Shown here: positions 1 through 28,519 of the stretch, piece by piece
Layout: each line of letters starts with the position of its first letter
Numbering within the stretch: the first letter of the stretch is position 1
Source: a virus
DNA length: 28,866 nt
Strand: one strand, 5' to 3'
Virus record (IMG/VR): IMGVR_UViG_3300020394_000339
Location: 1 to 28,866 of that record
Translations under genes and position numbers: made by a program
Notes under the pieces: model-generated
Told to the model about the DNA's origin: nothing
Databases searched by the model: none
Seen by the model: the letters and a program-made list of their open reading frames with translations, nothing else

Positions 1-838
1 TTCTTAATTTAGATGCATTGATAAGTGTATTTGTTGAACCTAAAAATTCACATTCAAACTCTGTGGCAAATTGTTGTTCACTTGTATTAGCAATAGTTTC
101 TTTTTTCCATTTTTCATCACGACCTGGTACCTCTGTCCAATGCACCTCAATTGGAATATAACTATTTCTTTTATATTGAGCATCATTCCATATTTTGTAG
201 AACATGTTCATACCGTGTGGTGTAGAAACAATAATAACCTTTGTTGATTTACCAGATGATATTGTAGGATATACTGAACTAAAAAATTGCTCTGCAACAC
301 TAGCAGGTACATATGCAAACTCATCAAGAAAAATAATATTAAATGAACTACCTCGAACTGTTGAGGCAGATGTAGAAGCTGCGAGTATTTTACTTCCGTT
401 TTCTAATTCAAGACTTCCTTTGTTCCATGACATTACTCCTTGTTGTAACCACTTAGGTAAGTTCTCATATGCAAGTTGTAATCTACCTAATAAGTCTCTA
501 GAAGTTGCAGCTTTGTTAGCAAGTATTGCTATGTTTGTATTTGGATTAAACAATGCATAGTGTAATAGATATGCAATCATAGTGGTTGATTTACCAGACT
601 GTCTAGGAAGTTTACAAATAGTAAATCTATTATTATGAAAAGTACCAATCATATCTTTTTGAAAGTTATATGGTTTAAAAGGAACTAGACCCTCATCTAG
701 AGAAACAATTTTAATATAAGTTTGTATAAAGTATAATGGGTCTTCCATACACTTTTGATATTCTTCTATTTCTTTTTGAGTCCACTCTTTAGGTTGATTA
801 ACCTTTTTAAGATTAGGATTCCCTAGATAACTTTCCAT
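1..838 (-). CDS. 17: Terminase large subunit gp17, N-terminal ATPase part (cut by window edge)
   Basis: Motor ATPase that pumps DNA into the prohead. The frame runs from the ATG at 838 to the window edge without a stop, giving 279 codons; T4 gp17 is about 610 residues, so the C-terminal nuclease domain lies outside. Visible motifs are a Walker A loop, LPRQSGKST, near residues 76-84, a Walker B segment, IIFLDEFAY, near 164-172, and the coupling motif STPHG near 205. The partial chain ends in FECEFLGSTNTLI, which resembles the linker just before the nuclease domain in T4-type proteins. The first 26 bases overlap the end of the upstream radical SAM gene, and the Shine-Dalgarno (AGAAAG) is weak, so translation is probably coupled. 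Family assignment is certain; the start is fairly secure. Confidence 0.95.
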   Translation of the reverse strand, partial: MESYLGNPNLKKVNQPKEWTQKEIEEYQKCMEDPLYFIQTYIKIVSLDEGLVPFKPYNFQKDMIGTFHNNRFTICKLPRQSGKSTTMIAYLLHYALFNPNTNIAILANKAATSRDLLGRLQLAYENLPKWLQQGVMSWNKGSLELENGSKILAASTSASTVRGSSFNIIFLDEFAYVPASVAEQFFSSVYPTISSGKSTKVIIVSTPHGMNMFYKIWNDAQYKRNSYIPIEVHWTEVPGRDEKWKKETIANTSEQQFATEFECEFLGSTNTLINASKLR

Positions 839-1763
839 TTACGTAATACTTTCTTTTTCTATATAAACTTTTTCTTTTAGTAGAACATTTTTTCTTACAT
901 AGTTCAGGTACATCACCATTTGTAATTTTATCAAAAAAATATATCCATGATTTACTATTTACTATATCTTTTATTTTATTATTATTTAGATTGTTACTTT
1001 TATCTAATAGTGGTTCAAATCTTTTATCTATATTATCTTTGTGTTGAACATGAGCATCTAACCAACAACATGGTAACACTTGTTTATTTGTTGCAACAAA
1101 AGGTAATCTTTCTTGGGTATCTGTTAAACACTTAGGTCTAAATTCTTCTTTATCTTCTTCAATGTCAAAAGTCTTTGTTGGTTTTAAAAATTCTGTATAT
1201 CTACCAGAATAATTAATTTCTAAATCAACTCCAATATCTTTTGCCATTTGTATTGCTTCATCTATCTTGTCTTCATTGTATTTAAAAACTATGTATTGCC
1301 AAATACATTTAATATCCATTTTACTAGCAGTTTTCATTACCTCATATAGATGTTCACCATCTTGATTTATTCTATGTGCAAAACTTTGATAAGGCAATCC
1401 ATCAATACCAAAACGCCATTCTGCATTTGGATGAGCTCTAAATGCATCAATATACCATTCCATAGGTTTTTGAGAAGCTGCGTTACTAATAGATACGTGA
1501 ACATTTTTAGAACACGCAATACGTAACATTTGAATTAAATGAGGATTAAAAACAGGGTCACCATATGTTCCATTAAGAGTTAATGAAGAAAAATAATCTG
1601 TTAAGTCTTGCCACTCTTCAATTGTTAGATCACTACCAGGTATGTCGTTAGATTTATAATTAAAGTTTCCTCTAGCACACGTAGGACATTGTAGGGTACA
1701 CTTATTTGTTATATCTAAATCGCCACCTTTATTTTCAAATCCATTATTTTTATAATCAATCAT
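813..1763 (-). CDS. Radical SAM protein with SPASM-like C-terminus, between gp16 and gp17
   Basis: A 316-residue radical SAM enzyme. The cluster-binding motif is C22-x3-C26-x2-C29 (CTLQCPTC), followed by NGTYGDP at 64-70, which stands where the SAM-binding GGE motif is expected. Later cysteines C212, C232-C233 (LPCC), C289 and C293 look like ligands of an auxiliary iron-sulfur cluster, as in SPASM or twitch proteins, which often modify peptides. The last residues are Lys/Arg-rich. The gene overlaps the small terminase upstream by 8 bases and the large terminase downstream by 26, so it is embedded in the packaging operon. The ATG directly abuts an AAAGG, which is poor spacing for ribosome binding; re-initiation after gp16 is likely. 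Substrate unknown. It is not closely similar by eye to the other radical SAM gene in this window. Confidence 0.85.
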   Translation of the reverse strand: MIDYKNNGFENKGGDLDITNKCTLQCPTCARGNFNYKSNDIPGSDLTIEEWQDLTDYFSSLTLNGTYGDPVFNPHLIQMLRIACSKNVHVSISNAASQKPMEWYIDAFRAHPNAEWRFGIDGLPYQSFAHRINQDGEHLYEVMKTASKMDIKCIWQYIVFKYNEDKIDEAIQMAKDIGVDLEINYSGRYTEFLKPTKTFDIEEDKEEFRPKCLTDTQERLPFVATNKQVLPCCWLDAHVQHKDNIDKRFEPLLDKSNNLNNNKIKDIVNSKSWIYFFDKITNGDVPELCKKKCSTKRKSLYRKRKYYVNGKLSRES

Positions 1764-3977: not shown

Positions 3978-4790
3978 TTATCCCTTAATTATCATATCGG
4001 GGTATTGCATGTTTTGTATTTGTTCTTCTAGTCTAGTGATGTCCTCTTGAGCTTGTGTATAAATTTGTTCACCATTCATAGTTACACCACCTAGTAATTG
4101 AACCTCATTAAACTTAGACAAGTTTTGCCCCCATTGTTTTTTAATCAAAGCAGTTGCATATCTTTTTAAATTCATGTCGTTGTATATGTCGGTATATGTA
4201 TTAGGGTCAAGTTTTCTGTAACACTCAATAATTAAATAATCATTTTCTTTAATATCGTTTGACCAGTCCATGTCAATATACAATCTTCTTTGATGTTCAT
4301 AAAATCTAATTGGACTTTCACCTACCAATAAATGTGACAAGTAATCAAGATGTTGCATTGTCATTTCATAATGTATAATACTTGTTGAAGAAAAATCATA
4401 CAGGTCATTTAATCTTAATTGATATCTAATATCAAACATATTGTTTGTAGCAGAATTATCAAAGCTAAATATTTTTAAAACGGATACTACTGAGTCTGGC
4501 ATAGGAATAAAACCTTTGCCTTCTTCAAATGATGCTGTGACTGAGGTGTCTGCAATATCTGTCGCTGTCGTAGTTGCGTTTGCAGCTCCTCTTGTAATAT
4601 CGTCTGCTGTAATTTTGTATTTGAGATACATCTTCTCAATACCATCGTAATAGTAATGAGCAAAGTATTGTAATGCTTCGTCTAATCTATCGTCTGCTTG
4701 ATCGTCTGTAACGTTAATATCTACGGCACCCTTACCTAAATTTCTTAGGCAATATTCCTTTAATGTACTCTTTGAATTTGGATTGGCCAT
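3978..4790 (-). CDS. 13: Neck protein gp13
   Basis: A 270-residue neck protein; T4 gp13 has 309 residues and works with gp14 to close the packaged head. Family features are LKEYCLRNLGKGAVDINV near residues 10-27 and the following DDRLDEALQYFAHYYYDG helix. The ATG at 4790 has GGA at a sound distance and an upstream GATAAATA octamer, both within the end of the epimerase gene, whose last 59 bases overlap this gene in another frame. It is the first gene of the 13-14-15-16-radical SAM-17 unit. Confidence 0.92.
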   Translation of the reverse strand: MANPNSKSTLKEYCLRNLGKGAVDINVTDDQADDRLDEALQYFAHYYYDGIEKMYLKYKITADDITRGAANATTTATDIADTSVTASFEEGKGFIPMPDSVVSVLKIFSFDNSATNNMFDIRYQLRLNDLYDFSSTSIIHYEMTMQHLDYLSHLLVGESPIRFYEHQRRLYIDMDWSNDIKENDYLIIECYRKLDPNTYTDIYNDMNLKRYATALIKKQWGQNLSKFNEVQLLGGVTMNGEQIYTQAQEDITRLEEQIQNMQYPDMIIKG

Positions 4791-5568
4791 GTATTTTTCC
4801 TTTTAAGTATTTATCTAAATCCCTTTTTGGCTGCCACCCCAATGATAAAATGTCTTCGATATTTGCAGTATTATCAAGACTTTCCCCACTATGACCATCC
4901 TTTACGGGTATGTTTTGATAGTATTTATCTACCAATTCATTTACTTTTACTCCTTTTCCACTACCTATTTCATATGTGTGTTGTGTCCAATTCATATAAA
5001 AATCTTTTCTATTAATGAATATTTTTATCGCATCGCAGACATCTAATACATGTATAAAGTCTCTAGTATGTGTTGTTTTGTATTTAAGGTCTTTATCAAT
5101 TAATTTTTGTGTTAACATACTAGGTCTGCATCCGTCACCAAATACATTTGTAAATCTAAGTCCTATATGTTTACCTGTTGCTTTTGCCACTGCCTCCATT
5201 GCTTTTTTAGAACTTGCATATGGATTTTTCCACCAGTTGTGAACATTTGAAGACGATGCATATATCATTGGTATTTCTAACTTAGAACACAATTTAAATA
5301 AATTAGTAGACCAATCAACGTTAGTCTCAAACCATTTATGTGGATTACTAAAAGATGCTCTTACATCTGCTAGAGCTGCTAAATGTACAACCCTATCAAA
5401 TGATTTTAGATAGTCCTCAGTTAAGTCTCTAAAGTTTCTGGGTGCTGGTTGACCGTGTGAGTTTCTACCGTGTAAATCCCAACCATCAACTTCATGATTA
5501 TCACACTCTAGTTCTTCAACCAAGTGTCTTCCAATAAATCCAGCAGAACCTGTTACTAATATTTTCAT
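4732..5568 (-). CDS. NAD-dependent nucleotide-sugar epimerase/dehydratase (extended SDR)
   Basis: An extended short-chain dehydrogenase/reductase of 278 residues, of the type that epimerises or dehydrates NDP-sugars. Visible features: the NAD-binding glycine motif G7-x2-G10-x2-G13 at the N-terminus, D31 at the end of the second strand (NAD rather than NADP preference), HLAA at 63-66, the Ser-rich strand YASSS at 103-107 and the catalytic Y117-x3-K121. RDFIHVLDVCDA (169-180) is the usual substrate-domain motif. I chose the ATG at 5568 because AGAGG sits 7-8 bases before it; an in-frame TTG at 5574 is too close to that site. The 3' end overlaps gp13 by 59 bases. It is divergent from a glycosyltransferase operon, so a joint role in sugar synthesis and transfer is inferred. 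The exact sugar is unknown. Confidence 0.88.
   Translation of the reverse strand: MKILVTGSAGFIGRHLVEELECDNHEVDGWDLHGRNSHGQPAPRNFRDLTEDYLKSFDRVVHLAALADVRASFSNPHKWFETNVDWSTNLFKLCSKLEIPMIYASSSNVHNWWKNPYASSKKAMEAVAKATGKHIGLRFTNVFGDGCRPSMLTQKLIDKDLKYKTTHTRDFIHVLDVCDAIKIFINRKDFYMNWTQHTYEIGSGKGVKVNELVDKYYQNIPVKDGHSGESLDNTANIEDILSLGWQPKRDLDKYLKGKIHGQSKFKEYIKGILPKKFR
4808..4815 (-). promoter_or_regulatory. Probable T4-type late promoter for gp13
   Basis: GATAAATA on the minus strand, 18 bases before the gp13 ATG and inside the 3' end of the epimerase gene. It fits the NATAAATA late promoter form known in marine T4-like phages. A second GATAAATA at 4922-4929, deeper in the gene, weakens the specificity of this call. 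Confidence 0.45.
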
Positions 5569-5580
5569 TGACAAATCCTC

Positions 5581-5628: not shown

Positions 5629-6504
5629 ATGTCAAGGGTTATTTATTCGTTATATATTGATGTTCCCAAAGATAAACTAGATATATTCGACAAACATATT
5701 CTCAAAGAAAATCAAACGCCAATGAATTTAAAAATGAAACAGGCGTTTATCGATCACTATGATAAACTCATAGAGAGTAAAAAACGCTATGCAGATAAGA
5801 TTGGTGCAGAGTTTCAGATGTATGAATATGATGAAGACTATATTAAATTTCACGAAGAGTATTCTAAAAAATATCCTTTTCTTACAGACTATAATATAAT
5901 AAACAAATATAAGTTACACATTCTAGATAGACTTGTTAATTATTTTGATGAAGTTTTATATCTAGACTTTGATGCTGTACCTCTTACAAATGAAAATTTT
6001 TTTGATGTATGGGATTTAGAAAAAGGAATTGCAATCTTACACAATAATGATAAAATAAGACCAACCGCTGGTAGTGTATATAATATACAAGGTACAATTC
6101 GATCTCCGTCAGCAAAATATTTTAATGCGATGGCCATGTTAGAATACAGAGGTTATAGTCCTCAATGTGATGTGGTAAATACAGCAATAGTTGGTGCAAA
6201 TAAAAAACATTGGTCAAAACTAAAATATTTTTATAGTTTAAAAGAAGACTTTGAGTTGATGACTTATCTAAAAGATAATTCTGAAATGTATCCACCAAAT
6301 ATAGTAAAAACTTTTGGATATGATAATGAAACTATTTTTTCTTATAAGATTGTGGCTAATAAAGTTCCAATACAATGGTTAGATAGTAAGTGGCATTTCT
6401 TTTATGATGATAATAGAGGAATACCTGAAGACACAAAAATATGTCATGCGATAAACAAAGAGTTTGATAGAGTTTGGAAATATTATGACAAGATTAACTT
6501 GTAA
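5629..6504 (+). CDS. Glycosyltransferase, GT-A fold with DxD (first copy)
   Basis: A 291-residue sugar transferase. YLDFDAVPL at 111-119 contains the metal-binding D113-x-D115 of GT-A enzymes; NTAIVGA at 184-190 matches the acceptor/donor-site segment of glycogenin-like (GT8-type) proteins, and H273 in CHAINK may be the late metal-binding His. No signal peptide or membrane segment is seen, so it should act in the cytoplasm. GAGG lies 5 bases before the ATG. It begins a three-gene plus-strand operon and its end overlaps the radical SAM gene. It appears paralogous to the third gene of the operon: both have DxD, NTxxxG and a C-terminal H...NxxFDR stretch. Donor sugar and acceptor are unknown. 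Confidence 0.82.
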   Translation: MSRVIYSLYIDVPKDKLDIFDKHILKENQTPMNLKMKQAFIDHYDKLIESKKRYADKIGAEFQMYEYDEDYIKFHEEYSKKYPFLTDYNIINKYKLHILDRLVNYFDEVLYLDFDAVPLTNENFFDVWDLEKGIAILHNNDKIRPTAGSVYNIQGTIRSPSAKYFNAMAMLEYRGYSPQCDVVNTAIVGANKKHWSKLKYFYSLKEDFELMTYLKDNSEMYPPNIVKTFGYDNETIFSYKIVANKVPIQWLDSKWHFFYDDNRGIPEDTKICHAINKEFDRVWKYYDKINL

Positions 6505-7597
6505 AGCACCATTAGTAACACTTAATATATCACCTCAAGGTTATATTAATTTGTGTTGTGAATATCGTAAACTCAAAATATCTCACATTGATGAAATAGA
6601 TAACTTAGAAGAATTTTTTAATTCTAGTGTTATGGATTATTACAGAAAAGAAATATCTGAAAAAGGTAATACAAAAAATTTGGAGTCATGTAAAGTATGT
6701 TATAAAAATACCATGATGGGTATGGAAACTTTTAGAACTAGATTAGAAAAATATCATACATTTCCAAATGAAGAACTTGATAAAAAAGCAAGAGAAGTAG
6801 GTATAAATGTTCCTATTCGTTATTTAGAATTTACGTTATCAAATATATGTAATCAAGTATGTGCTATGTGTTCTAGTTTTTCTAGTAATAAATGGCAAGA
6901 ACTAGATAAAAAATTTGAAAGAAAAGTTTATCCGTTAATGAAATTATCTGATAACGCAATTTCTAAGATAGAAAAAATTTTATATGGATTAGATTATATT
7001 GAAATAAAAGGTGGTGAGCCATTTGCAGATATAAGAAATTTAAGAATATTAAAAAAACTTGCTGAAGTAAATTCTAAATGTAATATTAAAATTATGTCTA
7101 ACATGCATCATATAACACCAGAGGCAATGGAAATACTTAAAAAATTTCCAAATACAAAAATATTTGCTAGTGTTGATGGTACTGATAAAATCTATGATTG
7201 GATAAGAGGTGGAAACTTTAAAAAGACAGTTAATACAATGGAAAAATATTATAATGAAACAGGTAATAAAGTACACATAGCAACAACAATTAGTTTATAT
7301 AATTTTTTTAATTTATTAGATATACAAAATTATTTTGAAGATAAAGAATATATTAGTAACATTGTATTTAATAATTGGTGTCGATATACTAAAGATGGTT
7401 CAGCTGATATTATTGGAAGTGATATTTACAATAAACAAATTGAAAAATATAAAACAACTCTTAAAAATTTTGAATCTAAGGAATATGAAGACAAAGGTAA
7501 TTATAATCATAAACCATTTTTTGATAAATTAAATAATCATAGAGGATTTAACTTAATGGATTATGTGCCAGAATTAAAGGAATGGTATAATAAATGA
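6485..7597 (+). CDS. Radical SAM protein with N-terminal twitch-like domain
   Basis: A 370-residue protein. The N-terminal part has cysteines C6, C24-C25, C69 and C72, like the auxiliary-cluster (twitch) domain that in some families precedes the radical SAM barrel. The barrel motif is C122-x3-C126-x2-C129 (CNQVCAMC), followed by KGGEPF at 175-180, the GGE SAM-binding motif, and ASVDGT at 228-233. This order fits the 'N-twitch' radical SAM group, known from phage and bacterial glycosylation islands. I prefer the ATG at 6485 (GGA about 7 bases upstream) to an in-frame TTG at 6464; it overlaps the preceding gene by 20 bases. The stop overlaps the next start as ATGA. Reaction and substrate are unknown. 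The gene looks more AT-rich than the structural genes. Confidence 0.85.
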   Translation: MTRLTCKAPLVTLNISPQGYINLCCEYRKLKISHIDEIDNLEEFFNSSVMDYYRKEISEKGNTKNLESCKVCYKNTMMGMETFRTRLEKYHTFPNEELDKKAREVGINVPIRYLEFTLSNICNQVCAMCSSFSSNKWQELDKKFERKVYPLMKLSDNAISKIEKILYGLDYIEIKGGEPFADIRNLRILKKLAEVNSKCNIKIMSNMHHITPEAMEILKKFPNTKIFASVDGTDKIYDWIRGGNFKKTVNTMEKYYNETGNKVHIATTISLYNFFNLLDIQNYFEDKEYISNIVFNNWCRYTKDGSADIIGSDIYNKQIEKYKTTLKNFESKEYEDKGNYNHKPFFDKLNNHRGFNLMDYVPELKEWYNK

Positions 7598-8520
7598 AAA
7601 ATTTAGTTTATACAATTTGGGAAGAAATTAGAATAGACCCTAATTTTACAGACAAACAAATTAACACTCTTAATCAATTTAAAAAATATAAAGATAGATT
7701 AACAGCGTTACAAAAAGAATATGCAGAAAAATATTGTAATGCAGAGTATAAAATAATTTATACAAATTGTAAAGATATGAATACAATGAAAGCACCATGT
7801 TATATTCAATCAGATTATGATACAATTAACTTTGAGAAAGTTTTTCTTTTAGAGGACTTTGCTAAAAGTGGTAAGTATGAAAATATTCTTTACATGGATT
7901 TAGATATGATACCTTCTACCACTAAAAGTTTTTTTGAAAAATTTGATATGAGTAAAATAGTTATTAGACACGAACCATCACATAGATATGACAAACTAGG
8001 ATTACAAGCTTTATTAGATACACTAATAAGAGAAAACGAAGAACACAAAAAATATTTTGAGTCTCTTAAAAAAAGTGGCAAATGGATTGAGTATGCTAGA
8101 GAATTTATTGACAAAAATTTTGATGAGGCATTTCAAAAACTAGACAAGTATCATTGGTTAGTAAAGAGTGAATGTGTTGATAGAATGTTAGATCAGTTCG
8201 AGGTAATACCTAGATACAATACACTTAATACAGGTACGATAGGTGGTAGTTCAAAAGCGATTAATTCACTAAAAATTAGTGAAAGATTTCCTCAATATGT
8301 AAAAGAGTTTGAACAACTAAAAAAGAAAGAACCAAAATTTCAAATGAATAATGAGATATTTTTGTGTTGGTTAATAAACAAATACAATTGTCGATATGAA
8401 CAAATGCCAGAACATTGGCATAGTCTTTGTTTAAATACTGAGGATGTTAGACACGCTTGTATGTGGCAAGTTATAGATAAAAACTTTGATAGAGCTCTTA
8501 CTCTTCAGAGCTTTTCTTAA
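7594..8520 (+). CDS. Glycosyltransferase, GT-A fold with DxD (second copy)
   Basis: A 308-residue transferase. YMDLDMIPS at 100-108 carries the D102-x-D104 metal site; NTGTIGGS at 212-219 parallels the NTAIVGA of the first copy, and HACMWQVIDKNFDR near 287-300 parallels CHAINKEFDR there. Hence the two enzymes share a fold and probably an origin, but they differ enough to suggest different sugars or acceptors. Between DxD and NTG lies a long charged helical insert (about 130-200) that the first copy lacks. Start overlaps the preceding stop (ATGA), with AAGGAA about 10 bases upstream. The end overlaps the convergent late gene by 23 bases. Confidence 0.8.
   Translation: MKNLVYTIWEEIRIDPNFTDKQINTLNQFKKYKDRLTALQKEYAEKYCNAEYKIIYTNCKDMNTMKAPCYIQSDYDTINFEKVFLLEDFAKSGKYENILYMDLDMIPSTTKSFFEKFDMSKIVIRHEPSHRYDKLGLQALLDTLIRENEEHKKYFESLKKSGKWIEYAREFIDKNFDEAFQKLDKYHWLVKSECVDRMLDQFEVIPRYNTLNTGTIGGSSKAINSLKISERFPQYVKEFEQLKKKEPKFQMNNEIFLCWLINKYNCRYEQMPEHWHSLCLNTEDVRHACMWQVIDKNFDRALTLQSFS
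8491..8516 (+). terminator. Possible terminator of the plus-strand operon
   Basis: Inverted repeat AGCTCT / AGAGCT (8493-8498 and 8507-8512) with an 8-base loop, extendable by one G-T and one A-T pair, followed by a short TTTTC run. It lies inside the last codons of the second glycosyltransferase, exactly where the operon meets the opposing gene. The stem is short, so this is tentative. Confidence 0.3.
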
Positions 8521-10218: not shown

Positions 10219-11412
10219 TTATATAGCTGCGTGTCCGTTTACAGTTTTCAAAGTAGAACCAGAAGAGTCTTTAATCAATAGAATACTATCTGGTGTTGCG
10301 TGAAACTTACCAGTTGAACCTACGATTTTTGCTTTCTCTGTAGCTGTTTCTGAGTTACCACATCTAAACGAAATTTTAGTTGCGTTATTTGATGCAGAGA
10401 AGTCACCTTCAGAGACACACTCAACAGCACCTGCAACTAAAATTGCATCTGTGCCTGTGGCTTCATCGGGAGCTTGGAACTGTATAGAACCTAATACGTT
10501 GTTAGCTGCAACATCTGTATCACCTGTCGATAATGTAAGAACAGCACCAACACCAGAGTTACCTGTAGTTGAAATGTTTTTCATAGTAAGACCTGTGTCT
10601 GCAACGTGTGTTACTGTAATATCATCATTAGCACCAAAAGATAGAACAGCACCATCGTGTTGTAATTCTAAATCTTGTGTTAATGTGACATCACCATCTG
10701 AACCTATAGCGATGGCATCTGTATCACCCGCAGAACCTATAGTTCCAGCATTAGGGATTACAAGTGAACCTGAACTACCGTTAAGTGTAAGTACACCAAC
10801 TGACGATAGTTTCATTGTTTCAGCAGCTGCAGCTGATGCCGCAGTTTTGAAACTTAATTTTGTTGCATTGTTTGATGTACTAAAGTCACCTTCTGAAACC
10901 GCTTCGATTCCAGCTGCAGTTAAGATTGCATCTGTACCTTGAGCTTCGTCTGGTGCTTGGAAATCTAATTTTCCGATAACATCATCTGCTTGAATATCTG
11001 TCTCACCTGTTTGTAAGGTTAAAGCAATTGTGCTGTCATCACCTGTTGCTGTGTGTTTTAAAATTAAACCTGAATCTGCAACGTGAGTTAAAGTTATTTC
11101 TTGGTCATTTCCAAATTGAATTGTTGAACCGTCTGCTAAAAACAAGTCTGAAAATTCTTTTGATGCACTACCAATCGTTGCTCCATCGGCGCTTGTAGGA
11201 ACGATTGACGTTGTGATATTTGGACTTGTTAATGTTTTGTTTGTAAGTGTTGCTGTACTACCTGCAGAGACCATGCTAAAGCCACCAGCTGTACTACCAT
11301 CGTGGACACGTAACACATCGGTAGTTGTGTCATACGTAATCTCTCCAATGGCGCCGGTAAATGCATTGTTCTGAGAAGTAGTACCTCGTCTAAATTGTAG
11401 TACTGTTGGCAT
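10219..11412 (-). CDS. Tail fibre-like protein with Mtd-type N-terminus and internal duplication
   Basis: A 397-residue fibre-like protein. The N-terminus, LQFRRGTTSQNN followed by GEITYDTTTDVLRVHDGS (residues 5-40), is the short beta-hairpin module found at the start of many phage fibre proteins and of the Bordetella phage tropism determinant. TLTNKTLTSPNI at 55-66 is a common fibre linker. Two copies of a module of about 105 residues follow (about 97-201 and 257-361), each with THVADxGL, FQAPDEAxGTDAIL and SEGDFSxSNNATK. No chaperone or peptidase end domain is visible. AGGAG lies about 8 bases before the ATG and a TATAAATA octamer 26 bases before it, so it has its own late promoter. Receptor binding is inferred. 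Confidence 0.78.
   Translation of the reverse strand: MPTVLQFRRGTTSQNNAFTGAIGEITYDTTTDVLRVHDGSTAGGFSMVSAGSTATLTNKTLTSPNITTSIVPTSADGATIGSASKEFSDLFLADGSTIQFGNDQEITLTHVADSGLILKHTATGDDSTIALTLQTGETDIQADDVIGKLDFQAPDEAQGTDAILTAAGIEAVSEGDFSTSNNATKLSFKTAASAAAAETMKLSSVGVLTLNGSSGSLVIPNAGTIGSAGDTDAIAIGSDGDVTLTQDLELQHDGAVLSFGANDDITVTHVADTGLTMKNISTTGNSGVGAVLTLSTGDTDVAANNVLGSIQFQAPDEATGTDAILVAGAVECVSEGDFSASNNATKISFRCGNSETATEKAKIVGSTGKFHATPDSILLIKDSSGSTLKTVNGHAAI
10330..10644 (-). repeat. Second copy of the internal fibre module
   Basis: Codes for residues about 257-361 of the 397-residue fibre protein. It aligns with the copy at 10810-11124 at an offset of 159-161 residues, sharing THVADTGL, FQAPDEA and GDFSASNNATK. 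Confidence 0.75.
10810..11124 (-). repeat. First copy of the internal fibre module
   Basis: Codes for residues about 97-201 of the 397-residue fibre protein. The key shared segments are THVADSGL, FQAPDEA and GDFSTSNNATK; the end of this copy is Ala-rich (AASAAAAETM), unlike the second copy. Confidence 0.75.
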
Positions 11413-18600: not shown

Positions 18601-20094
18601 TTAAAACTCAATAATTATCTTAACGTCTTCCGTCTGATCTGATACCCTCTGAATTGGTTTTCTGTTTTCAATATAAACTATATTACCACTATCTGGTTGC
18701 AACTCTGGGTTTGCATATCCACTTGTTAGTGTTACAGTATTTCCATTTGCAAGTGTAACTGTATCTGAACCTGTTGACGATGGTGTACCCACAGCATTTG
18801 TTGTTGCACCTGTTATTGTATTGGTGCCACTAAACGCTGTAAAACTTTGTGTAGTTGTTGCTGTACCATATGTGCTAAATCTTTCTTGTTGATAGTACAA
18901 TAATTTTCGTGTGGCATCCCACTCAACAACACGACCTACAGCACCTGTCGTTGCTTGAGTGATTTGCTCATCAACATCAAAAGTACCCGTGGCAGAAGAG
19001 AACTTAACAACATAGGTTTGTCTTGCAGTTGTAGATGATGCCACGGTCGATGTTCCAAACGTTGTTGGGTCAACGACTATGCCAACTTGTCTAAAGTCAT
19101 TTGCAACTGTAAAGTCATCACCCTCTGCCTGAGTGATTGTTGTATTTGCAATTACAAAGTGACCACCTAATTCTTCTACCGCATTTTTACCATGGCCATC
19201 TTTAGGTGATATGATAACTCTTACATCACCACCTGTACCTGAACCCATGTTTGCTGAACTTGATAAACCTGTGTCTGAGAATACGTTTGTTAAAGAAACT
19301 TTTCCAAAAGTATAACCAGCTCCACCTGCGTGTATTGTTGTGTCTGTACCAGCAGTTAATCCAAATGATTGAATTGTGCCACCTGATACTGTAATTCTTA
19401 TGATCGCACCACTTGATGTACCTTGCGATGTTCCATCACCAAAGACTGGTGCGTAGTATGTTCCGTTTGTATAACCAGAACCACCTGTAACTTTAACTGA
19501 TTCTATTTTACCATCTACCGCAGCTGCTGAAACAGTTGTATCTGTTGATACAGGTATGTAATCTGTTGTAATAAATTTAACAGCTTCAGACGCTGTAATT
19601 GTGTACATATATTTTAAAATATATCCACCAGAAGCAAAAGGTGATGTAGATGTAGATGTAGGTTCTGAACCAGAAAATGCAGCTCCACCATTGTTGTCTA
19701 ATACTTTATATACATCTTTGTTAGATGTCATAAAATAAAAATTAGAACCATATAAAGAAGATGAACCTGACGCAGTTGTATTTGAAGATGAAACTGTGTC
19801 ATCGTACATATCAAATACTGTACTGTTAGCCCAGTTAACTCTAGGAAGTGCAAACGAGATATCTGAACTTGTAATTTTTTTAGCACCTAACATAGAGTCC
19901 CATAGATAGAACTCATTGGAAACGCTATCCGCTGGTGTAGGTGGAGAAGTGTCGGTACCACCTGATGTACCAGATGTGAAAGGCATTGATTTTCCTAAAA
20001 ATAAGTAATAAGTTGATGCCGAAGCTTCTGAGAAAGATTCGCTAAATTGATTTGCGTTATGTTGTCTAAATTTTTCTGTTATAATTGCTGTCAT
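18601..20094 (-). CDS. 8: Baseplate wedge protein gp8
   Basis: A 497-residue relative of the gp8 wedge protein; T4 gp8 has 334. The opening (MTAIITEKFRQHNANQFSES, then YYLFLGKSMPF) and the segment KKITSSDISFALPRVNW near 74-90 are what marine T4-like gp8 proteins show. Gly/Ser/Thr-rich beta stretches fill the middle, with one module of the repeat type shared with neighbours (QATTGAVGRVVEWD). The C-terminus ends in KPIQRVSDQTEDVKIIIEF. AAGGAAG lies about 9 bases before the ATG, and two tandem late octamers lie just upstream, so this gene starts a late unit with the giant gp10-position gene. Confidence 0.82.
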   Translation of the reverse strand: MTAIITEKFRQHNANQFSESFSEASASTYYLFLGKSMPFTSGTSGGTDTSPPTPADSVSNEFYLWDSMLGAKKITSSDISFALPRVNWANSTVFDMYDDTVSSSNTTASGSSSLYGSNFYFMTSNKDVYKVLDNNGGAAFSGSEPTSTSTSPFASGGYILKYMYTITASEAVKFITTDYIPVSTDTTVSAAAVDGKIESVKVTGGSGYTNGTYYAPVFGDGTSQGTSSGAIIRITVSGGTIQSFGLTAGTDTTIHAGGAGYTFGKVSLTNVFSDTGLSSSANMGSGTGGDVRVIISPKDGHGKNAVEELGGHFVIANTTITQAEGDDFTVANDFRQVGIVVDPTTFGTSTVASSTTARQTYVVKFSSATGTFDVDEQITQATTGAVGRVVEWDATRKLLYYQQERFSTYGTATTTQSFTAFSGTNTITGATTNAVGTPSSTGSDTVTLANGNTVTLTSGYANPELQPDSGNIVYIENRKPIQRVSDQTEDVKIIIEF

Positions 20095-20135: not shown

Positions 20136-23100
20136 TTAAGCACTCCTTACTTCAATTACTGAAGATTTAACAATGGGTTGACTTCCTAATGTAATCACTA
20201 ATAGAGGTATGTCTTTATTGAATTTCTTAGGACCACCAGATAATTCTAATGTATCGTGAGGTATCTGACCTTCGTCTGCAAATATAGTTGAACTTTCTAA
20301 TAATATATTCTCTACTAGTATTGCTGCATCGTCAATATCTTGTTCACTTAATACTTTAAAACCTGCATCCGAACCAGAACCATCTGTTCCATCTAATACT
20401 AAACTGTCTGTTGCAACTTCTTGGGCTGCATCTTCAAGTAGAAATGCGTCAGCAAAGTTTTTCTGAGTAGTCTTTTCTGCTTTCATTTTTGTACCTGGTA
20501 CCATAGTTGCATCTTCCATGAGTAAATGTTCTTGTACAGAGTTTGTTGAAAAGTCTTCAACAATAATAACTCCATCCTCTTCTAAGATAAATCTTTCATT
20601 AGCAGAACCAGTTTTTTCAGATATAATAAATTCGTCAGAGTCAATTACTTGACCTGTAAGAGGACCAGATGTAACTAAATGTCCATCTAGTTTTAAGAAA
20701 CCATCTATCTCTAACTTAATACCATCAGAGTCATCTACACCTGCTTGATTTATATCTGAGGTACCATTGTCTAATCCTCTATTAGATAATAGTTCAGGTG
20801 TAACTAAACCATCTTCTAAATTAAAGAACCCAGAGTTATCTTCTAATTCTAATGGGGATACTCCATCAAACTCTTCTATAATTTTACTTGTAAAATGTCT
20901 ATTGTTTTCTGTTAGTATATCAGATGGTTGTCCTAATAATATTTTTGATGGTCTGAGTATATCGACTAATCTTAATCCCTCAAATTCTGATAAAGGAATT
21001 GAGTCATAAGTTTTTAAAGAGTCTTCTATTAATATTTTTGAATTAACAGATAACACTTGAGCTGAATCAAATGTAAATGAACTTGTTTCTAATAACATTC
21101 TAGAAGTATCACCTTCACCAGTAGAACTTTCTAATATTATATTATCACCTGCGTTTGTACCACTTACAGCTGTACCATCTAATACAAGAAAAGCAACTTG
21201 TGGTAATGGGTCAATACCATCTAATCTTAAAGTATCTAATTCTGAACCTTCTAATTGAATACCTTCACTATCAGGAAATATTTCATCTGAAATTGTTCTT
21301 AAAAAGTTTTGTGGTGCTCTTGGTGTAGCTTTAGATAATATATTCATATTGTATGTTGGTATGAAATGATTTTGTGCTTTACCACCAGGTGTCAAAGAAG
21401 TCTCTGCCATAACTCTTCCACCTTTACCAAACTGATCTATTGTACCATCTTCAAATAAGAAGTTATCTCCAGCATCCGTAGAGGAACCAGCAGTAGAGTT
21501 AATTAATATTGCATCTCCTCTATTACCAATTCTATTTTCTGAGTCTGGTATAATATGTGTTCTTCTAAATTTCTCATCAAACAATGTTGTAAGAACAGAA
21601 CCAAGAATAGGTGAGAACGTATCGCCACCAGAAGTTTGCACACCTAAATTAATAAATGATGCAATACTAACTTTACCAAAAGGTGCAAACCCAGATGGGT
21701 GAACAGCTTTTCTTAACTCATTAATATATGTTGATACTGATTGACCTACTTGTACTTCGTAAGAGAATTGTTGATAGTAGTAAGAGTCTTGTACACGTAT
21801 TAGGTCTTCACCAATTAATGAGTCGATTGTGTTATAAGCACCTTCGGTAGTTTGTTGTACTCCAGCATTAATAGTACCAGTAGCAATATCTGATAATAAT
21901 ACTTTACCGCTTGCTGTTGCTGTGGTTATTTCTACGTTCCCACCAGTTAAGAAATCTATTTTTTCATTTAGTATTAAACTATCAGCTGCATTTTTAGAAT
22001 CAGAGTTTGTACCATCTAATACAATAAAGTCTGCAGCTGAAACATCTGTTTCATCTAATATTTTTCCAGCATCTAAACTATCTTCAAGAGTAATTAAATT
22101 ACCATGATCTTCATTCTTCATACGAGCACCATTCTCATCAAGAATGAAAGTAGTTTGTACATCTATGTCATTATCAATTAATAATTTAGAACCAGCGTTT
22201 GCAACAAGTAAAGGACTGTCAATAGATTGTTCAGTTATGATATTACCTGAGTTATCTTCAAGTGCTATTTTTAATAATGGATTAGCACCATTAACAGGTT
22301 CTGCAAGTATGTGATTTATTTTTTCACTTGTACCATTTAGTAATATGTTACCACCAGCATCTGTTACAAAACTTTGTGGTGTGTTTGTTTCTACAATTCC
22401 ACCCATACCAGAATGGTTAACACAATAATAATAAAGGGTAGGAGCATTAGATGCTATTGTAATTTGTATATACGCACCTTCAGTACCAGTTGCTATTGTT
22501 ATACCACTTTCAGTTACACCCGTTGTATAAGCTGTTCCACTCGCATGTGTGCCATCTGGTGTTTCAGAAAATCTTAGTCTATGTCTGTTTGTCTCAACAA
22601 CATCATATAAAGAACTATCTGATAAATCAAAGTAATAAGTATTACCTTCAACTAGTTTTAAACTTTTTTGTCTTACGTTATCTATTTCAAAAACGTTTGC
22701 TGTATCATCTGCGTTTCTAACCTTTTTAACTTTTACTTCAATAAATCTGGTTGGTGGTGAGACAATAGATGTACCATTTAATACAATATTATCATCTGGT
22801 CCACCTGGTAAATCTTTGACATCTTCCATAAGAACATGATGACCAGCAAGACCTTCATTACTTTCTTGAACAAAAGGTGCGTTGTAAACAACTGCTTGTT
22901 CATGTCTTATTTTAACAATGTCCTCTAGTGTAACATCTAATTGTTGAGTGTCAGCATTAAAAGATTTAACCACACCAGTATGTGAAGTTAATTGATCTCC
23001 AGCTACAAACGAACCAGTAATATCTTTTAATACAAAGTGAGCTCTAAAACGCATGTCTGGTAAATCATTAGCATCGTAATCAAAACCAGAGTCATTAATT

Positions 23101-24974
23101 TTTAAAGATTCAATTCCACCAATATCATTTGTAAGTGCTAATATTTTTGCACCACTACCATCAGCAGTTTCTACTGTAACGGTTGGTAAAGATACGTATC
23201 CTTGTCCTTTATCAGTTAAAAATATTTTTCTTATTGATGATGCTGTGCCTGTATCAAAAGTACCTGGTTCTAAAAATATTTGATCGTTATCGTCACCAAA
23301 AGTATCTAACGTTACTTGTGTTTCATCTGATATAATTCTTCCACCAGCATTTGCACCAGACCCATCAGTTCTATCTAAAATAATTTTATCGTTTTCTAAT
23401 ACAGGGTATGAGATATAATCCTCTGAGTTAAACTGACCTGTAGGTGCTGATGATAATGCATAGTTTCTTTCTGCCGCTGGCATATAAAAAGTAATACCAG
23501 GAAACTCCACAAATTTAAATGGGTTAGAATTATCGGCACCACCTGCACCAGCTTGAGTTAAAAATAAAGGATAGTAATAACCTTTGGCACCACCAGATAA
23601 TTGTTGTTTTCCATTTACTTTTGTTTCACCAGTGGCAAAAACATAATATGGTCCATCCAATACTGTATTTGATTCTAACTGTATATTAAATTCTTCAGCA
23701 GTTCTTGTTGTACCTATCTCTTTTAATAGTAAACCAGATGTTGTATCTGTGGCAGTTTCTAATTCTATACCACCACCTAAAATAGTAATAATACCTGATG
23801 CTTCATTTTCTCCACCAGCTGATGAAAATAAAACCTTTTCACCAAGACGATAACCTGTACCAGCAGTTTGTATAAAAGTGTCAGATACAGAACCTCTTTT
23901 TAAACTATTAACTAATACATCTGCAAAACCATTTCCTTTGTCTGTATCAATAACAGCAGCTTCAGAAGCAGAGTGTAAAATACCAGGGTTATCTAAATTT
24001 GTTTGATTAATAATACTTTTAATAGTAAATGATATTTCTAAGTCTAGAGAGTTTGATATACATTTAATTTCTTCACCAGTTACAAAAGGGTCACCTTGAG
24101 ATAAGTCTTCAATTGCTAATTCAATAACTGAAGTTGTTCCTTGTTGAAACGTAGATGCTGACGCAACAACAGCTGTTGCACCAGAAGTCTGACCTGTAAT
24201 AACTTGGTTAACAGTTTCTTGACCTGAACCAGAACCATTGGTTGAAACTCTAATTAGTTTTCTTGCTCTCCATTTACCATCTGATACTCGTAACATGTTT
24301 TCATTTGGATAAAATATTTCAGCAGACTCATCAAGAAGTAAACGCATGAATACTTTATGACCTTCAGACGTTCCTTTGGCTGCATATAAATCACGTATGG
24401 ATTTTACTAGATTCCTTTTAGATACATTTGATGCTAAACTATTTGGAATAGTTGCCATAAATGATTCTTTGATTTGGTCAAAGAATTCAAATAAAGAATT
24501 ATCTACATCAGCATAATCTAATAGTTGTTGAATATTTTGTACAGGATTTGCTTTGTATGTTACAATCTTAGCAGTTGCACCAGAAGTTTGTCCTACTATA
24601 TTTTCACCAATTTCAAATCTATTATTTGCACCAATGTAAAGTGAAACATTTCTAACATCTTCAACAATTACTTTTGCCTCTGCACCAGACCTTGAACCTT
24701 TTACAATTTCACCAGGTGTATATTCTGTACTAGACTCTAAAACTATTCTATCTACAGCTGCACCAAGTATTCCATTTTCAGATAACAAGTAACCTTTTGT
24801 TTCTGGTTCTAAAATTAAGTAATCAGTTGTAAAATCTAAAGTAACTTTAGCAGACTCTAGAAACTGAAAATAGTCCTCAACAAAACTAGCAAATAGTTGA
24901 TGATCTGCTCTAACAAAGTCAGGCAGTTGAGTTTCTATTTGATGTGATACTTTGTTTACGAGTTTAGTTGTCAT
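20136..24974 (-). CDS. 7: Baseplate wedge protein gp7-like, with cupredoxin-like module
   Basis: A 1612-residue protein between gp6 and gp8, the place of T4 gp7 (1032 residues). The N-terminus (QIETQLPDFVRADHQLFASF, then VEDYFQFLESAK) is the conserved start of marine gp7-like proteins. Beta repeats of GxTSGAxAxV type occur early (VGQTSGATAKIV, TGQTSGATAVVA). Residues about 775-862 form a cupredoxin-like module with H798, C851, H854 and M857. The C-terminal half carries at least four acidic repeats of the LDGTxxSGxxAGDxxxLE kind (about 981, 1153, 1261 and 1523), with one further copy near 528. It sits 11 bases after the gp6 stop, with AAGAGAG before the ATG. Role inferred from position: wedge initiation and link to the periphery. 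The gp7 label rests mainly on order. Confidence 0.82.
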   Translation of the reverse strand: MTTKLVNKVSHQIETQLPDFVRADHQLFASFVEDYFQFLESAKVTLDFTTDYLILEPETKGYLLSENGILGAAVDRIVLESSTEYTPGEIVKGSRSGAEAKVIVEDVRNVSLYIGANNRFEIGENIVGQTSGATAKIVTYKANPVQNIQQLLDYADVDNSLFEFFDQIKESFMATIPNSLASNVSKRNLVKSIRDLYAAKGTSEGHKVFMRLLLDESAEIFYPNENMLRVSDGKWRARKLIRVSTNGSGSGQETVNQVITGQTSGATAVVASASTFQQGTTSVIELAIEDLSQGDPFVTGEEIKCISNSLDLEISFTIKSIINQTNLDNPGILHSASEAAVIDTDKGNGFADVLVNSLKRGSVSDTFIQTAGTGYRLGEKVLFSSAGGENEASGIITILGGGIELETATDTTSGLLLKEIGTTRTAEEFNIQLESNTVLDGPYYVFATGETKVNGKQQLSGGAKGYYYPLFLTQAGAGGADNSNPFKFVEFPGITFYMPAAERNYALSSAPTGQFNSEDYISYPVLENDKIILDRTDGSGANAGGRIISDETQVTLDTFGDDNDQIFLEPGTFDTGTASSIRKIFLTDKGQGYVSLPTVTVETADGSGAKILALTNDIGGIESLKINDSGFDYDANDLPDMRFRAHFVLKDITGSFVAGDQLTSHTGVVKSFNADTQQLDVTLEDIVKIRHEQAVVYNAPFVQESNEGLAGHHVLMEDVKDLPGGPDDNIVLNGTSIVSPPTRFIEVKVKKVRNADDTANVFEIDNVRQKSLKLVEGNTYYFDLSDSSLYDVVETNRHRLRFSETPDGTHASGTAYTTGVTESGITIATGTEGAYIQITIASNAPTLYYYCVNHSGMGGIVETNTPQSFVTDAGGNILLNGTSEKINHILAEPVNGANPLLKIALEDNSGNIITEQSIDSPLLVANAGSKLLIDNDIDVQTTFILDENGARMKNEDHGNLITLEDSLDAGKILDETDVSAADFIVLDGTNSDSKNAADSLILNEKIDFLTGGNVEITTATASGKVLLSDIATGTINAGVQQTTEGAYNTIDSLIGEDLIRVQDSYYYQQFSYEVQVGQSVSTYINELRKAVHPSGFAPFGKVSIASFINLGVQTSGGDTFSPILGSVLTTLFDEKFRRTHIIPDSENRIGNRGDAILINSTAGSSTDAGDNFLFEDGTIDQFGKGGRVMAETSLTPGGKAQNHFIPTYNMNILSKATPRAPQNFLRTISDEIFPDSEGIQLEGSELDTLRLDGIDPLPQVAFLVLDGTAVSGTNAGDNIILESSTGEGDTSRMLLETSSFTFDSAQVLSVNSKILIEDSLKTYDSIPLSEFEGLRLVDILRPSKILLGQPSDILTENNRHFTSKIIEEFDGVSPLELEDNSGFFNLEDGLVTPELLSNRGLDNGTSDINQAGVDDSDGIKLEIDGFLKLDGHLVTSGPLTGQVIDSDEFIISEKTGSANERFILEEDGVIIVEDFSTNSVQEHLLMEDATMVPGTKMKAEKTTQKNFADAFLLEDAAQEVATDSLVLDGTDGSGSDAGFKVLSEQDIDDAAILVENILLESSTIFADEGQIPHDTLELSGGPKKFNKDIPLLVITLGSQPIVKSSVIEVRSA
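22395..22653 (-). other. Cupredoxin-like domain coding region within the gp7-like gene
   Basis: Encodes residues about 775-860. The pattern is YYFDLSD, then NRHRLRFSETPDG with H798, then YTTGV, then APTLYYYCVNHSGMGG with C851-x2-H854-x2-M857. This matches the order His ... Cys-x2-His-x2-Met of amicyanin-type blue copper proteins, and the flanking strands match the fold's pattern. Copper binding is inferred, not shown. Confidence 0.6.
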
Positions 24975-24985
24975 CTCTCTTCATT

Positions 24986-26914
24986 CTAATAACTTGACGT
25001 ACCACCAGATGTCGTAGTGGTTGTAGTCGTAGAGCTACCAGAACCAGATGTGCTGTATGACGAACCAGAAGACGTTGCTGTATCTATTGAAGCAGAAATC
25101 GATGTATTAGTAAAATCAATTTCCAATAATTGATTTCTGACTGGTACTATATCATTTGTTGCTGGTGTAATAACTAATCGTATTGCTGTTGAAGTTTCAC
25201 CATCAACATTAGATATGGCAGTTATGTTGATATTGTTAATTGATATATAACCTGAAGCATAATCAATACTACCTGCTACATTATCTGCATATGATCTAGT
25301 TGTACCAATCAAAGCATAACGTCTTAAATTTCCGTTACCATCGTCATCAAAAAAGAATTCAGTTGTTGTATCAGTACCAACTTTAAAACCTGAAGAGAAA
25401 AGAACTCCACCAGTTGATGCAAGGTAACCATCCTCTGGGTGTAACAATGCATTATTAAATGCTATGTTATAAGATTTAGTTGTACCTAACGTTGGTACAA
25501 AGTCTTTAGATAATTTAACAGTTGTTGTGTTATTTAATATTGCAGTATCAGCTTCGTCAATTAATTTAGAAACTGCTGATGCTCTGTATTGTCCATTGAA
25601 AGTTTGTAGAGTAGAAGTATTATAGTCAGTCAATACAGTTGTTACAGCAGTTACTAATTCGGAAGCTAATTTTGTTGTTGCGCTTGCATTATAAACAATA
25701 CTAGAAGTCAATCTTAATTTTGTAGTTTCTGGGTCAACAATAACTGGCGATATAGATGCAACAGTAAATTTAGATAAGTCAGAAACTAATTGTGTTTTTT
25801 GTGATGTAGTTAAGTTTGCACCTGTTGTTGATTTAACAGATATAAAAACTTTACCATACTCTGGTGTTGATGTTACACCAGTTGATGAATTGTAAGAACC
25901 TTGTTCTCCACCAAATACATTTACTGCTTGAGTTTGTGGAAATAATTTTCTAACAAAAACTTCATAGTCACCTGTGGTTACACATCTACCTTGCGATGCA
26001 TAATCTAAAGGTGCATTTAATTTTATTGATTGAATACTTTCTGGTTCACTACCACCTGTTGCTCTTTCAACTGTTGTTAAAGTAATATCAGTTACACCAT
26101 CAATAGATGCTGGTGGTGTAAATACAAAAGCACCATTGGCTTCTGTTTTATTTGTAACAACGTATTGTAAGATAACAATATTTCCATCATCCACAGCTTT
26201 AGATACAACACTATCACCAAAGTAAACTTCGTGTCTTCCGTTTTCTATTTCTTGTAAATAATAAACTGTACTTGTTTTTTCTAGTTGTGTAATATCAGTT
26301 GCTTTTGTATAAGTTACAGTTGTTGAGTCAGAAGCAGAGTTTTGTACTTTAACTGTAAGTGTAGAAGTGTCTGCTCTGTTATCTCTTAAAATAAATCTTT
26401 GTTCTAGATCAGATGTATCAACTGTATATCTTGTTGTAACGTAAGTACCTTCATAAACTTTTTGAGCATCAAAGTTAACAGAGTTACCAAACTTGGTACC
26501 TGTAATATCAGCGATAGTAACAAACTGATAATTAACACCATCAAGTGTGGTAGTAAATGCTGTACCTGCCGGCATAGTTTTTGTATTTGAATCTGTTTTA
26601 AGTGAAATGTTTATTGTAGCAAAAGGAGCTCTTGCTGATGTAATTTCATATCCTAATGTTTTTGCATGTGATACAGCTGATGATCTTAGAGATGATGTAT
26701 CTAAAAACATTTCGTTTGCTAACATATTAGCATTGAAACCTAGATAGTGTGTGTTGTATGAAAGAGAGTCAAGTAATATATCAAAACCAGAACCATCAAA
26801 GTCATAGTCTGTAAATTCTTTTTGTGCTTTTAAATATATTTTTAAATTTTCTTTTATCTGGTCAAAGTCTAATTCTGTAACTCTTAAATTTTTTTTATTT
26901 GTTGTAGTAGCCAT
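24986..26914 (-). CDS. 6: Baseplate wedge protein gp6
   Basis: A 642-residue baseplate wedge protein, close to T4 gp6 (660). The N-terminal region DYDFDGSGFDILLDSLSYNT (37-56) and ANMLANEMFLDTSSLRSSAV (62-81) are the classic gp6/baseplate J-like sequence; in T4, gp6 dimers form the inner iris ring of the baseplate. The last 28 residues are almost wholly Ser, Thr and Gly with a run of Thr, an unusual flexible tail. The ATG overlaps the gp25 stop (TAATG), so the two are coupled. Confidence 0.92.
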   Translation of the reverse strand: MATTTNKKNLRVTELDFDQIKENLKIYLKAQKEFTDYDFDGSGFDILLDSLSYNTHYLGFNANMLANEMFLDTSSLRSSAVSHAKTLGYEITSARAPFATINISLKTDSNTKTMPAGTAFTTTLDGVNYQFVTIADITGTKFGNSVNFDAQKVYEGTYVTTRYTVDTSDLEQRFILRDNRADTSTLTVKVQNSASDSTTVTYTKATDITQLEKTSTVYYLQEIENGRHEVYFGDSVVSKAVDDGNIVILQYVVTNKTEANGAFVFTPPASIDGVTDITLTTVERATGGSEPESIQSIKLNAPLDYASQGRCVTTGDYEVFVRKLFPQTQAVNVFGGEQGSYNSSTGVTSTPEYGKVFISVKSTTGANLTTSQKTQLVSDLSKFTVASISPVIVDPETTKLRLTSSIVYNASATTKLASELVTAVTTVLTDYNTSTLQTFNGQYRASAVSKLIDEADTAILNNTTTVKLSKDFVPTLGTTKSYNIAFNNALLHPEDGYLASTGGVLFSSGFKVGTDTTTEFFFDDDGNGNLRRYALIGTTRSYADNVAGSIDYASGYISINNINITAISNVDGETSTAIRLVITPATNDIVPVRNQLLEIDFTNTSISASIDTATSSGSSYSTSGSGSSTTTTTTTSGGTSSY

Positions 26915-27360
26915 TATCGTATTCTCTCTAACATTAGTGACATATCAACTAATTCTGTTGGTGCGTTAACTACAAAAAATTCTATGGATACTTCATAAGC
27001 ATTCTTATCAAACTGAGGTATTGCTCTAACAGTTTGTAATCTTGCTCTTGGTTCAAAGTTAACAATCACATCTTCTATTTTTCTTGCAAGAATATTTGAA
27101 ACCACTGGTGTCATGTTTTCAAATAACATATCTCTTACACCAGAGTGTATCTCTGGGTGAAAAGGTTTCTCATGTTCGTTTAGTAGTACGAGATTTCTTA
27201 TAGATCGTTTGACTGCTTGTATATCTTCGACCTTATTGACATCTGAGTTTGTTCCTTTTTTCTTAAAGAACAAGTCTAAGTCTCTGTAAATCCTACTTGA
27301 TTTATCAGATAAATTTGATGCTTGTGCGTCTGCACCTGCTCTGCCTGGTCTTGATGCCAT
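26914..27360 (-). CDS. 25: Baseplate wedge protein gp25 (GPW/gp25 family)
   Basis: A 148-residue protein of the gp25 family (T4 gp25 has 132), the sheath-nucleating wedge subunit shared with type VI secretion and R-type pyocins. The family core is clear: AVKRSIRNLVLLNEHEKPFH at 49-68, then PEIHSGVRDMLFENMTP at 69-85. FEPRARL near residue 118 is also conserved. AGGAG lies about 6 bases before the ATG, and a TATAAATA octamer 22 bases before it. In T4 gene 25 lies elsewhere; the 25-6-7 order is that of marine T4-like phages. Confidence 0.95.
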   Translation of the reverse strand: MASRPGRAGADAQASNLSDKSSRIYRDLDLFFKKKGTNSDVNKVEDIQAVKRSIRNLVLLNEHEKPFHPEIHSGVRDMLFENMTPVVSNILARKIEDVIVNFEPRARLQTVRAIPQFDKNAYEVSIEFFVVNAPTELVDMSLMLERIR

Positions 27361-27403: not shown

Positions 27404-28519
27404 TTAATCACCAATGATTACTGATTTAGAAGCAGTTTCTATTTTGTTTGAACCATCAGAACCTGAGATTCCAGCAGGGTCATCGCCTGTATCAACTGTA
27501 TCGTCTAGACGAGCTGCACCTTTAGTTCCGTTATTAAGATTGATTGTTTTTGCGTCCATTGTCGCATCGCCGGTTACGTTTTGATCGTATGTTCCTTTAA
27601 TATTTTCCACAACATTACCATCTACTTGTATATTCCAATTACCTTTAACGTAAGTATTACAGTTAGAATCTATTGTAAGATTAACATCACCTTTAACATT
27701 TACAAAATCACTACCTGCGATTACTTCATAGTTGTCGCCAGTTATTCTAGTTACTTTATTTCCTTTGTGGTCTATCTCATAAAAGGTACCAGACTCACCA
27801 TGTATCTCATGAATTCTAGAAGCACCATCTGTATCATCATATTCTTTTATGTTTTTACCATAAGTTTCTCTTACATTATTATTAGGATAAACAGCTGCAT
27901 AAGTTGATGCTGGTTCATCCCATTTACCATCTGCTTCTATATACATTCCACCAATACTTTTTTCTTCATTTGCGATTGGTACTTCTTTTGTTCTTGCATC
28001 TTCTTTAGTTTGTAGAATACTATGTTGTAAGCCTTCATCATTTCTTGCAAGTCTATTGATATCACTCTCAATAAATTGTGTCTCGGTGGTCATATTGAAG
28101 TCGTTATCTGTAAGTGGGTCTTCGAGTGTACCGTGACCAGACCATTTTTTTCTTTGTGGATTTATTTCACTTGGGTCATTAAAACCTAAATTTTTATTTG
28201 GAGCAGCACCAGGTTTACCTCTGAGTGTACCCATAACAACAGGTTGTTGTTTTTCTTCAGCGTCTAAAAAGAATCCTACTACCCATGTGCCAGGTTTTAT
28301 TGTACTAAAATCGCCAACTCCTTGCATTGAGGTATCATTTGTTGGCGCCATGACTGTTGCCCATGGCAAATATTCTAATGGAATATCAGAGAGATCATTT
28401 GTGTGGTGTCCGTATGCACGAACTTTGACTCGTCCTAATTTATCAGGGTCGTTATTGTCTTCAACAACTCCAATAAACCAAACGAATCCATCTAGACCTG
28501 AGAAATGTGTGGTGTTCAT
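27404..28519 (-). CDS. 5: Baseplate central spike/hub protein gp5, without lysozyme domain
   Basis: A 371-residue spike protein; T4 gp5 has 575. The N-terminal OB-fold domain is clear (GFVWFIGVVEDNNDPDKLGR at 11-30, LPWATVMAPT at 51-60, KPGTWVVGFFLD at 75-86). STYAAVYPNNNVRETYG (205-221) and SGTFYEIDHKGNKVTRITGD (243-262) open the C-terminal part, followed by valine-glycine octads (VKGDVNLTI, VKGNWNIQVDGN) of the triple beta-helix. The T4 lysozyme domain, about 160 residues with its Glu/Asp/Thr triad, is replaced by only about 90 polar residues (110-200). No clear Shine-Dalgarno precedes the ATG; the stop of the 41-codon gene is 8 bases away, so coupling is likely. Confidence 0.9.
   Translation of the reverse strand: MNTTHFSGLDGFVWFIGVVEDNNDPDKLGRVKVRAYGHHTNDLSDIPLEYLPWATVMAPTNDTSMQGVGDFSTIKPGTWVVGFFLDAEEKQQPVVMGTLRGKPGAAPNKNLGFNDPSEINPQRKKWSGHGTLEDPLTDNDFNMTTETQFIESDINRLARNDEGLQHSILQTKEDARTKEVPIANEEKSIGGMYIEADGKWDEPASTYAAVYPNNNVRETYGKNIKEYDDTDGASRIHEIHGESGTFYEIDHKGNKVTRITGDNYEVIAGSDFVNVKGDVNLTIDSNCNTYVKGNWNIQVDGNVVENIKGTYDQNVTGDATMDAKTINLNNGTKGAARLDDTVDTGDDPAGISGSDGSNKIETASKSVIIGD

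Follow-up and report, generated by a model that had tools for sequence, protein, structure and literature searches.

In cupredoxins with an amicyanin-type arrangement, a His lies near one strand, a Cys at a strand end, and a second His and a Met in the next loop. The His-Cys distance is 39 in amicyanin and 53 in rusticyanin. As to metal on phages, the tail fibres of T4 (gp37) and of Alteromonas phage R22Y have been proposed to bind iron through HxH motifs (PMC11705849), and such iron is the nearest parallel to a metal carried by the structures with which phages adsorb. A literature search, mostly outside subscription journals, turned up no paper on cupredoxins in phage tails. The domain described here, predicted to be a cupredoxin within a baseplate protein, belongs to a large structural module that is covered by no curated family.

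The window, that is, the whole stretch of DNA that was analysed, is a 28866-base fragment of a marine phage (IMG/VR IMGVR_UViG_3300020394_000339), in which a profile search located the cupredoxin-like domain once. Since the 1612-aa protein that carries it is flanked by T4-type baseplate genes, with gp5, gp25 and gp6 upstream and gp8 downstream, it was placed in the gp7 position; this assignment is made by position between gp6 and gp8 and by wedge-family matches (PHROG baseplate wedge subunits phrog_17744 and phrog_2885, and a match below the cut-off to Pfam PF23786 Baseplate_wedge), and it bears out the baseplate location given in an earlier note on this DNA. Elsewhere in the window, five genes within the structural gene block (813-1763 (-), 4732-5574 (-), 5629-6504 (+), 6464-7597 (+) and 7594-8520 (+), three of the five on the opposite strand) include two radical SAM proteins, one with a SPASM domain, an NAD-dependent epimerase and a sugar-transferase-like gene. 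The product of the gene at 10219-11412 (-) matches PF18454, the major tropism determinant N-terminal domain (1.3e-11).

Table 1. Coordinates in the window of the wedge protein, its predicted cupredoxin domain, the candidate ligand residues and the neighbouring baseplate genes
Feature	Position	Strand	Basis or remark
Baseplate wedge protein, 1612 aa	20136..24974	(-)	gp7 position; ORF, wedge family matches and flanking genes
Block holding the domain, about aa 715-999, absent in Melnitz-3 and Mosig homologues	21978..22832	(-)	BLASTP
Cupredoxin-fold domain (predicted), about aa 747-866	22377..22736	(-)	Profile match, AF2 model, Foldseek PDB matches
H798, predicted first metal ligand, just before strand	22581..22583	(-)	Kept in 91% of ligand-agnostic relatives
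H810 in DGTH loop, conserved, outside the ligand set	22545..22547	(-)	Varies apart from the set
C851, predicted thiolate ligand, strand end	22422..22424	(-)	Kept in 94% of ligand-agnostic relatives
H854, predicted second His ligand, in loop	22413..22415	(-)	Kept in 90% of ligand-agnostic relatives
M857, predicted axial ligand, in loop	22404..22406	(-)	Kept in 90% of ligand-agnostic relatives
gp5 hub	27404-28519		T4-type baseplate gene, upstream of wedge protein
gp25	26914-27360		T4-type baseplate gene, upstream of wedge protein
gp6	24986-26914		T4-type baseplate gene, upstream of wedge protein
gp8	18601-20094		T4-type baseplate gene, downstream of wedge protein

Translation of the wedge gene (20136-24974, minus strand) placed H798 in HRLRF and C851, H854 and M857 in YYYCVNHSGMGG, with 52 residues between H798 and C851 and the spacing C851-x2-H854-x2-M857, exactly as the earlier note had read them, so that a His-Cys-His-Met type-1 set is present in canonical order and with the canonical loop. 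Besides C851, the 1612 residues include a single other Cys. C-x2-H-x2-M alone was not above chance in the window (3 DNA-level matches, one of them in the wedge gene, vs 1.64 expected); the full C-H-H-M set rises above chance because most unique relatives retrieved without regard to the ligands keep all four (see below). H810 was considered as a further ligand and rejected, since two domains with none of the four ligands (L067, L069) still have it and others with the full set lack it (L273, first domain, L287, L288 and L302); its covariation with loss of the ligand set was weak.

For fold prediction, an AlphaFold2 (AF2) model of aa 740-868 was produced from an alignment of 37 window and locus sequences, giving nine strands at pLDDT 88.6 and pTM 0.84; the window domain matched the domain profile at 1.8e-64, being itself a member of that profile. 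In a Foldseek search of this model against the PDB, all of the 50 matches listed were cupredoxins or cupredoxin-domain enzymes except SO1698 entries, with 6ttd (8.8e-4), 2dv6 (1.7e-3) and 2ux6 (pseudoazurin with an amicyanin loop, 4.2e-3) as the best, and with McoA, Hyphomicrobium nitrite reductase, rusticyanin, AcoP and plastocyanin also among them. Since TM-scores were only about 0.4-0.6, with large rmsd, the likeness to PDB cupredoxins is at the level of the fold. In the model, strand 61-64 begins two residues after H798, strand 108-112 finishes with C851, and the loop leading to strand 120-126 contains H854 and M857, positions that support the amicyanin-type ligand placement proposed in the earlier note. 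A cupredoxin fold (Greek-key beta-sandwich, 7-8 strands, as in plastocyanin or azurin) is thus well supported for the window domain by this confident prediction and its best PDB matches, and the module may be called cupredoxin-like, as it had been from the sequence. Fold matches were also obtained to predicted 'beta-sandwich proteins' of Pithovirus LCPAC302 and LCPAC304 and Marseillevirus LCMAC201 (1.9e-6 to 6.6e-5).

Conservation was assessed by ligand-agnostic retrieval, using two alignments as queries, one covering the residues that precede H798 and the other those lying between H798 and the Tyr strand. All four ligands were kept in 112 of 125 unique domains, none kept exactly three, and the other 13 kept two (1), one (8) or none (4). 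Loss of at least three ligands was observed in 12 domains, compared with at most 4 in 20000 column shuffles, in a test that ignores kinship among the 125 domains. Among 45 conserved-but-variable columns, H854, M857 and H798 topped the list and C851 was sixth. On a tree built without the ligand columns, parsimony required six changes, of which the well-supported branches force only one, and the loss types seen were KAAA, RNNE, RNSF, HNYA, HNFA, YCYY, NCYL and YAGM. In the RNNE type (L086, L087), H798 is replaced by Arg and M857 by Glu, a pair that might form a salt bridge instead of holding a metal.

Judged from these alignments, the four ligands stand or fall together, which is the behaviour expected of a metal site. 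The earlier note had taken homologues that keep the fold without the four residues to speak against a site, and such relatives do exist (about 10%), but their losses are joint, which argues for a dispensable metal site rather than for no site; we read this minority as members in which the metal was dispensable and the domain was retained. Ligand-less members were modelled at pLDDT 62.2 and gave weak cupredoxin matches (best E 2.1e-3), and since the confidence of this model is low, its agreement with a fold kept after ligand loss is only suggestive. H, Y, C, H and M were invariant in 21 diverse members, which is not independent evidence because all of these members were picked for having the ligands.

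Among phages, the domain was found in 79 annotated records, covering Kyanoviridae of Synechococcus and Prochlorococcus, pelagiphages (Baldr and HTVC028P, in podovirus tail fibres, and Mosig) and methylophages (Melnitz). In S-CAM22 and P-SSM7 its carrier is annotated as a wedge initiator or wedge subunit, and in these two and in Syn19 the C-terminus of a gp9-like connector is a related H...C-x2-H-x2-M domain; the module also occurs in podovirus tail fibres and in long tail fibres, and in PSS2 it forms a stand-alone small gene with most ligands lost.

Near relatives of the window protein with frames long enough all carry the domain, at about aa 742-871, and at the corresponding site of this protein some members have the domain without ligands (L171, L177 and the L334/L340 type). 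In BLASTP against the Melnitz-3 and Mosig homologues, alignments stop near aa 714 (Mosig 675) and restart near aa 1000 (Mosig 1015), a domain profile search of these two wedge homologues gave no match, and both phages carry the domain instead in a tail-fibre gene. Since these homologues lack the block, the wedge protein can do without the domain. Placement varies between relatives, wedge in some and tail fibre in others, which makes the domain a mobile module of cyano-, pelagi- and methylophage tail proteins.

A genome scan, run with two search patterns of which one contained the ligands, located 62 loci with the domain on cellular-genome contigs, and the four residues were kept in 62 of 63 domains from such contigs, a count from a partly ligand-based search. 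The carriers include lipobox lipoproteins of SAR86, SAR92, OM182, related Gammaproteobacteria and Marine Group II archaea; Bacteroidetes and SAR86 also have it in giant surface-type proteins, and on MAG and SAG contigs it occurs in phage-like tail proteins. On three SAR86 contigs (L293:5866-9400, L268:5815-9256 and L301:5881-9360), the gene after that of a small cupredoxin-like lipoprotein encodes a secreted protein of about 970-1000 aa, a candidate partner; the neighbours of the SAR86 lipoprotein genes that were examined gave no clear functional clue.

Searches of Pfam, NCBIfam and PDB sequences with the window domain gave no direct match, neither to PF00127 Copper-bind nor to PF13473 Cupredoxin_1. 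In the same test, distant cellular relatives reached 0.0043 and 0.016, below cut-off, and L310, a Bacteroidetes domain, alone exceeded that of PF00127 Copper-bind. L310 matched the family profile (E 8.5e-7) with all four ligands in register and plastocyanins at 7.9e-4, and the ligand set of the window domain was also in register with C-H-M of amicyanin. After its four ligands were changed to Ala, the score dropped from 40.1 to 18.7 (best of 40 shuffles, 17.8); because the score depends largely on the ligand motif, L310 was used as support only, and the sequence link to plastocyanins rests mostly on that motif. No conclusion was based on the amicyanin, plastocyanin and pseudoazurin comparison sequences alone. 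A cupredoxin-family search of ten domain-carrying genomes returned ordinary plastocyanin-like proteins and L310. Seven of the 21 diverse members weakly matched PF25489, a plant At5g54830-like domain (best 0.0022), a possible eukaryotic link.

Taken together, the reading that we consider probable is a cupredoxin module with a type-1-like metal site, serving as a structural or host-contact surface domain on the virion, in which the metal is conserved but dispensable. The module, inserted into the baseplate wedge protein with its site intact, would form an exposed beta-sandwich on the virion tail, where one metal ion, copper by ligand type, would tie the His-bearing strand to the C-H-M loop and so stiffen the ligand-bearing face, and this face or the whole domain may meet the host envelope or neighbouring tail proteins. 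A metal site in the domain is likely; copper would be the likeliest metal by ligand type, the virion would carry it, and the role would be structural or adhesive rather than electron transfer. The predicted fold with its full ligand set, together with recurrence of the module in many ocean phages and in surface proteins of ocean bacteria and archaea, suggests that phage tails carry copper. That virion cupredoxins of marine phages, shared with surface lipoproteins, bind tail copper for attachment or baseplate triggering is a more doubtful proposition.

The same module could instead be a generic exposed cupredoxin-like sandwich, used as Ig-like domains are in other phages, with the four residues packing a loop and having no bound metal in nature. 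Its placement in many unrelated tail proteins, the persistence of ligand-less members at the same protein position, the cupredoxin matches, weak as they are, of the ligand-less model, and assembly in the cytosol, which is poor in free copper, all agree with this, but packing residues would be expected to decay singly, and domains with exactly three ligands are missing from the 125; moreover, Cys with two His and Met is unusual for packing and classic as a type-1 set, and the exported lipoproteins keep the same set, so that we regard packing as unlikely. That an Ig-like domain, rich in beta strands and with a YYYC motif like that of antibody VH domains, resembles cupredoxins by chance is scarcely credible: PDB sequence searches did rank antibody chains first, but on the YYC motif and at E 0.035 or worse, and these matches were set aside as motif noise, while the 50 fold matches listed contain cupredoxins and no antibody, and the ligands covary.

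Two further alternatives accept the metal and give it another task. Displayed to the host as a nutrient or carrier mimic and bound by an uptake receptor, it would be a copper version of the iron Trojan-horse proposed for T4 gp37 and Alteromonas phage R22Y (PMC11705849), and the domain's occurrence on wedges, tail fibres and gp9-like connectors of phages that infect several marine hosts is consistent with this; no receptor is known, however, and some members are without the site. In type-1 sites, moreover, the metal is largely buried, and we hold such a display to be quite improbable. Even less probable is a redox-active site that senses or joins electron transfer at the host envelope, for example by triggering a baseplate change. 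The ligand set and fold are those of electron-transfer proteins, and the ligand set is the sole support for electron transfer on the virion, but no partner is visible within the window, and the domain's spread over fibres, connectors and wedges, in phages whose hosts are dissimilar, together with repeated loss, fits a module better than a trigger.

If the preferred reading holds and the site binds copper, it would be a type-1-like copper site on phage tails, unreported in the literature searched, with a bearing on the stability of marine phages or their encounter with hosts, and on trace-metal accounting in the sea. With the ligand-less relatives as natural controls, what the metal does can be tested directly. 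Should copper be absent, the family would still be a large uncurated structural module common to phage tails and to cell-surface lipoproteins of dominant ocean microbes.

Compared with amicyanin, pseudoazurin and plastocyanin (PF00127), the window domain has the same predicted fold, a His before a strand, Cys-x2-His-x2-Met (the amicyanin spacing) after a long strand, and an aromatic strand before the Cys; it differs in a longer His-Cys stretch (53 positions, against 39 in amicyanin), in having no direct Pfam match, in sitting in virion proteins and in that its copper is only predicted. Rusticyanin, AcoP and the cupredoxin domain of Hyphomicrobium denitrificans nitrite reductase (2dv6), which are among the best fold matches at about 10-16% identity, are, unlike the window domain, established copper proteins of cellular redox chains. 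The Ig-like and accessory beta-sandwich domains of tailed phages resemble the module in occurring on many surface proteins and in being dispensable between relatives, but such domains of phage structural proteins are not known to have a conserved metal-ligand set. With the HxH sites of tail fibres (PMC11705849), the predicted site shares its place on the phage adsorption apparatus; those sites hold octahedral iron in a tail fibre, whereas here a Cys-His-His-Met site within a single domain is predicted.
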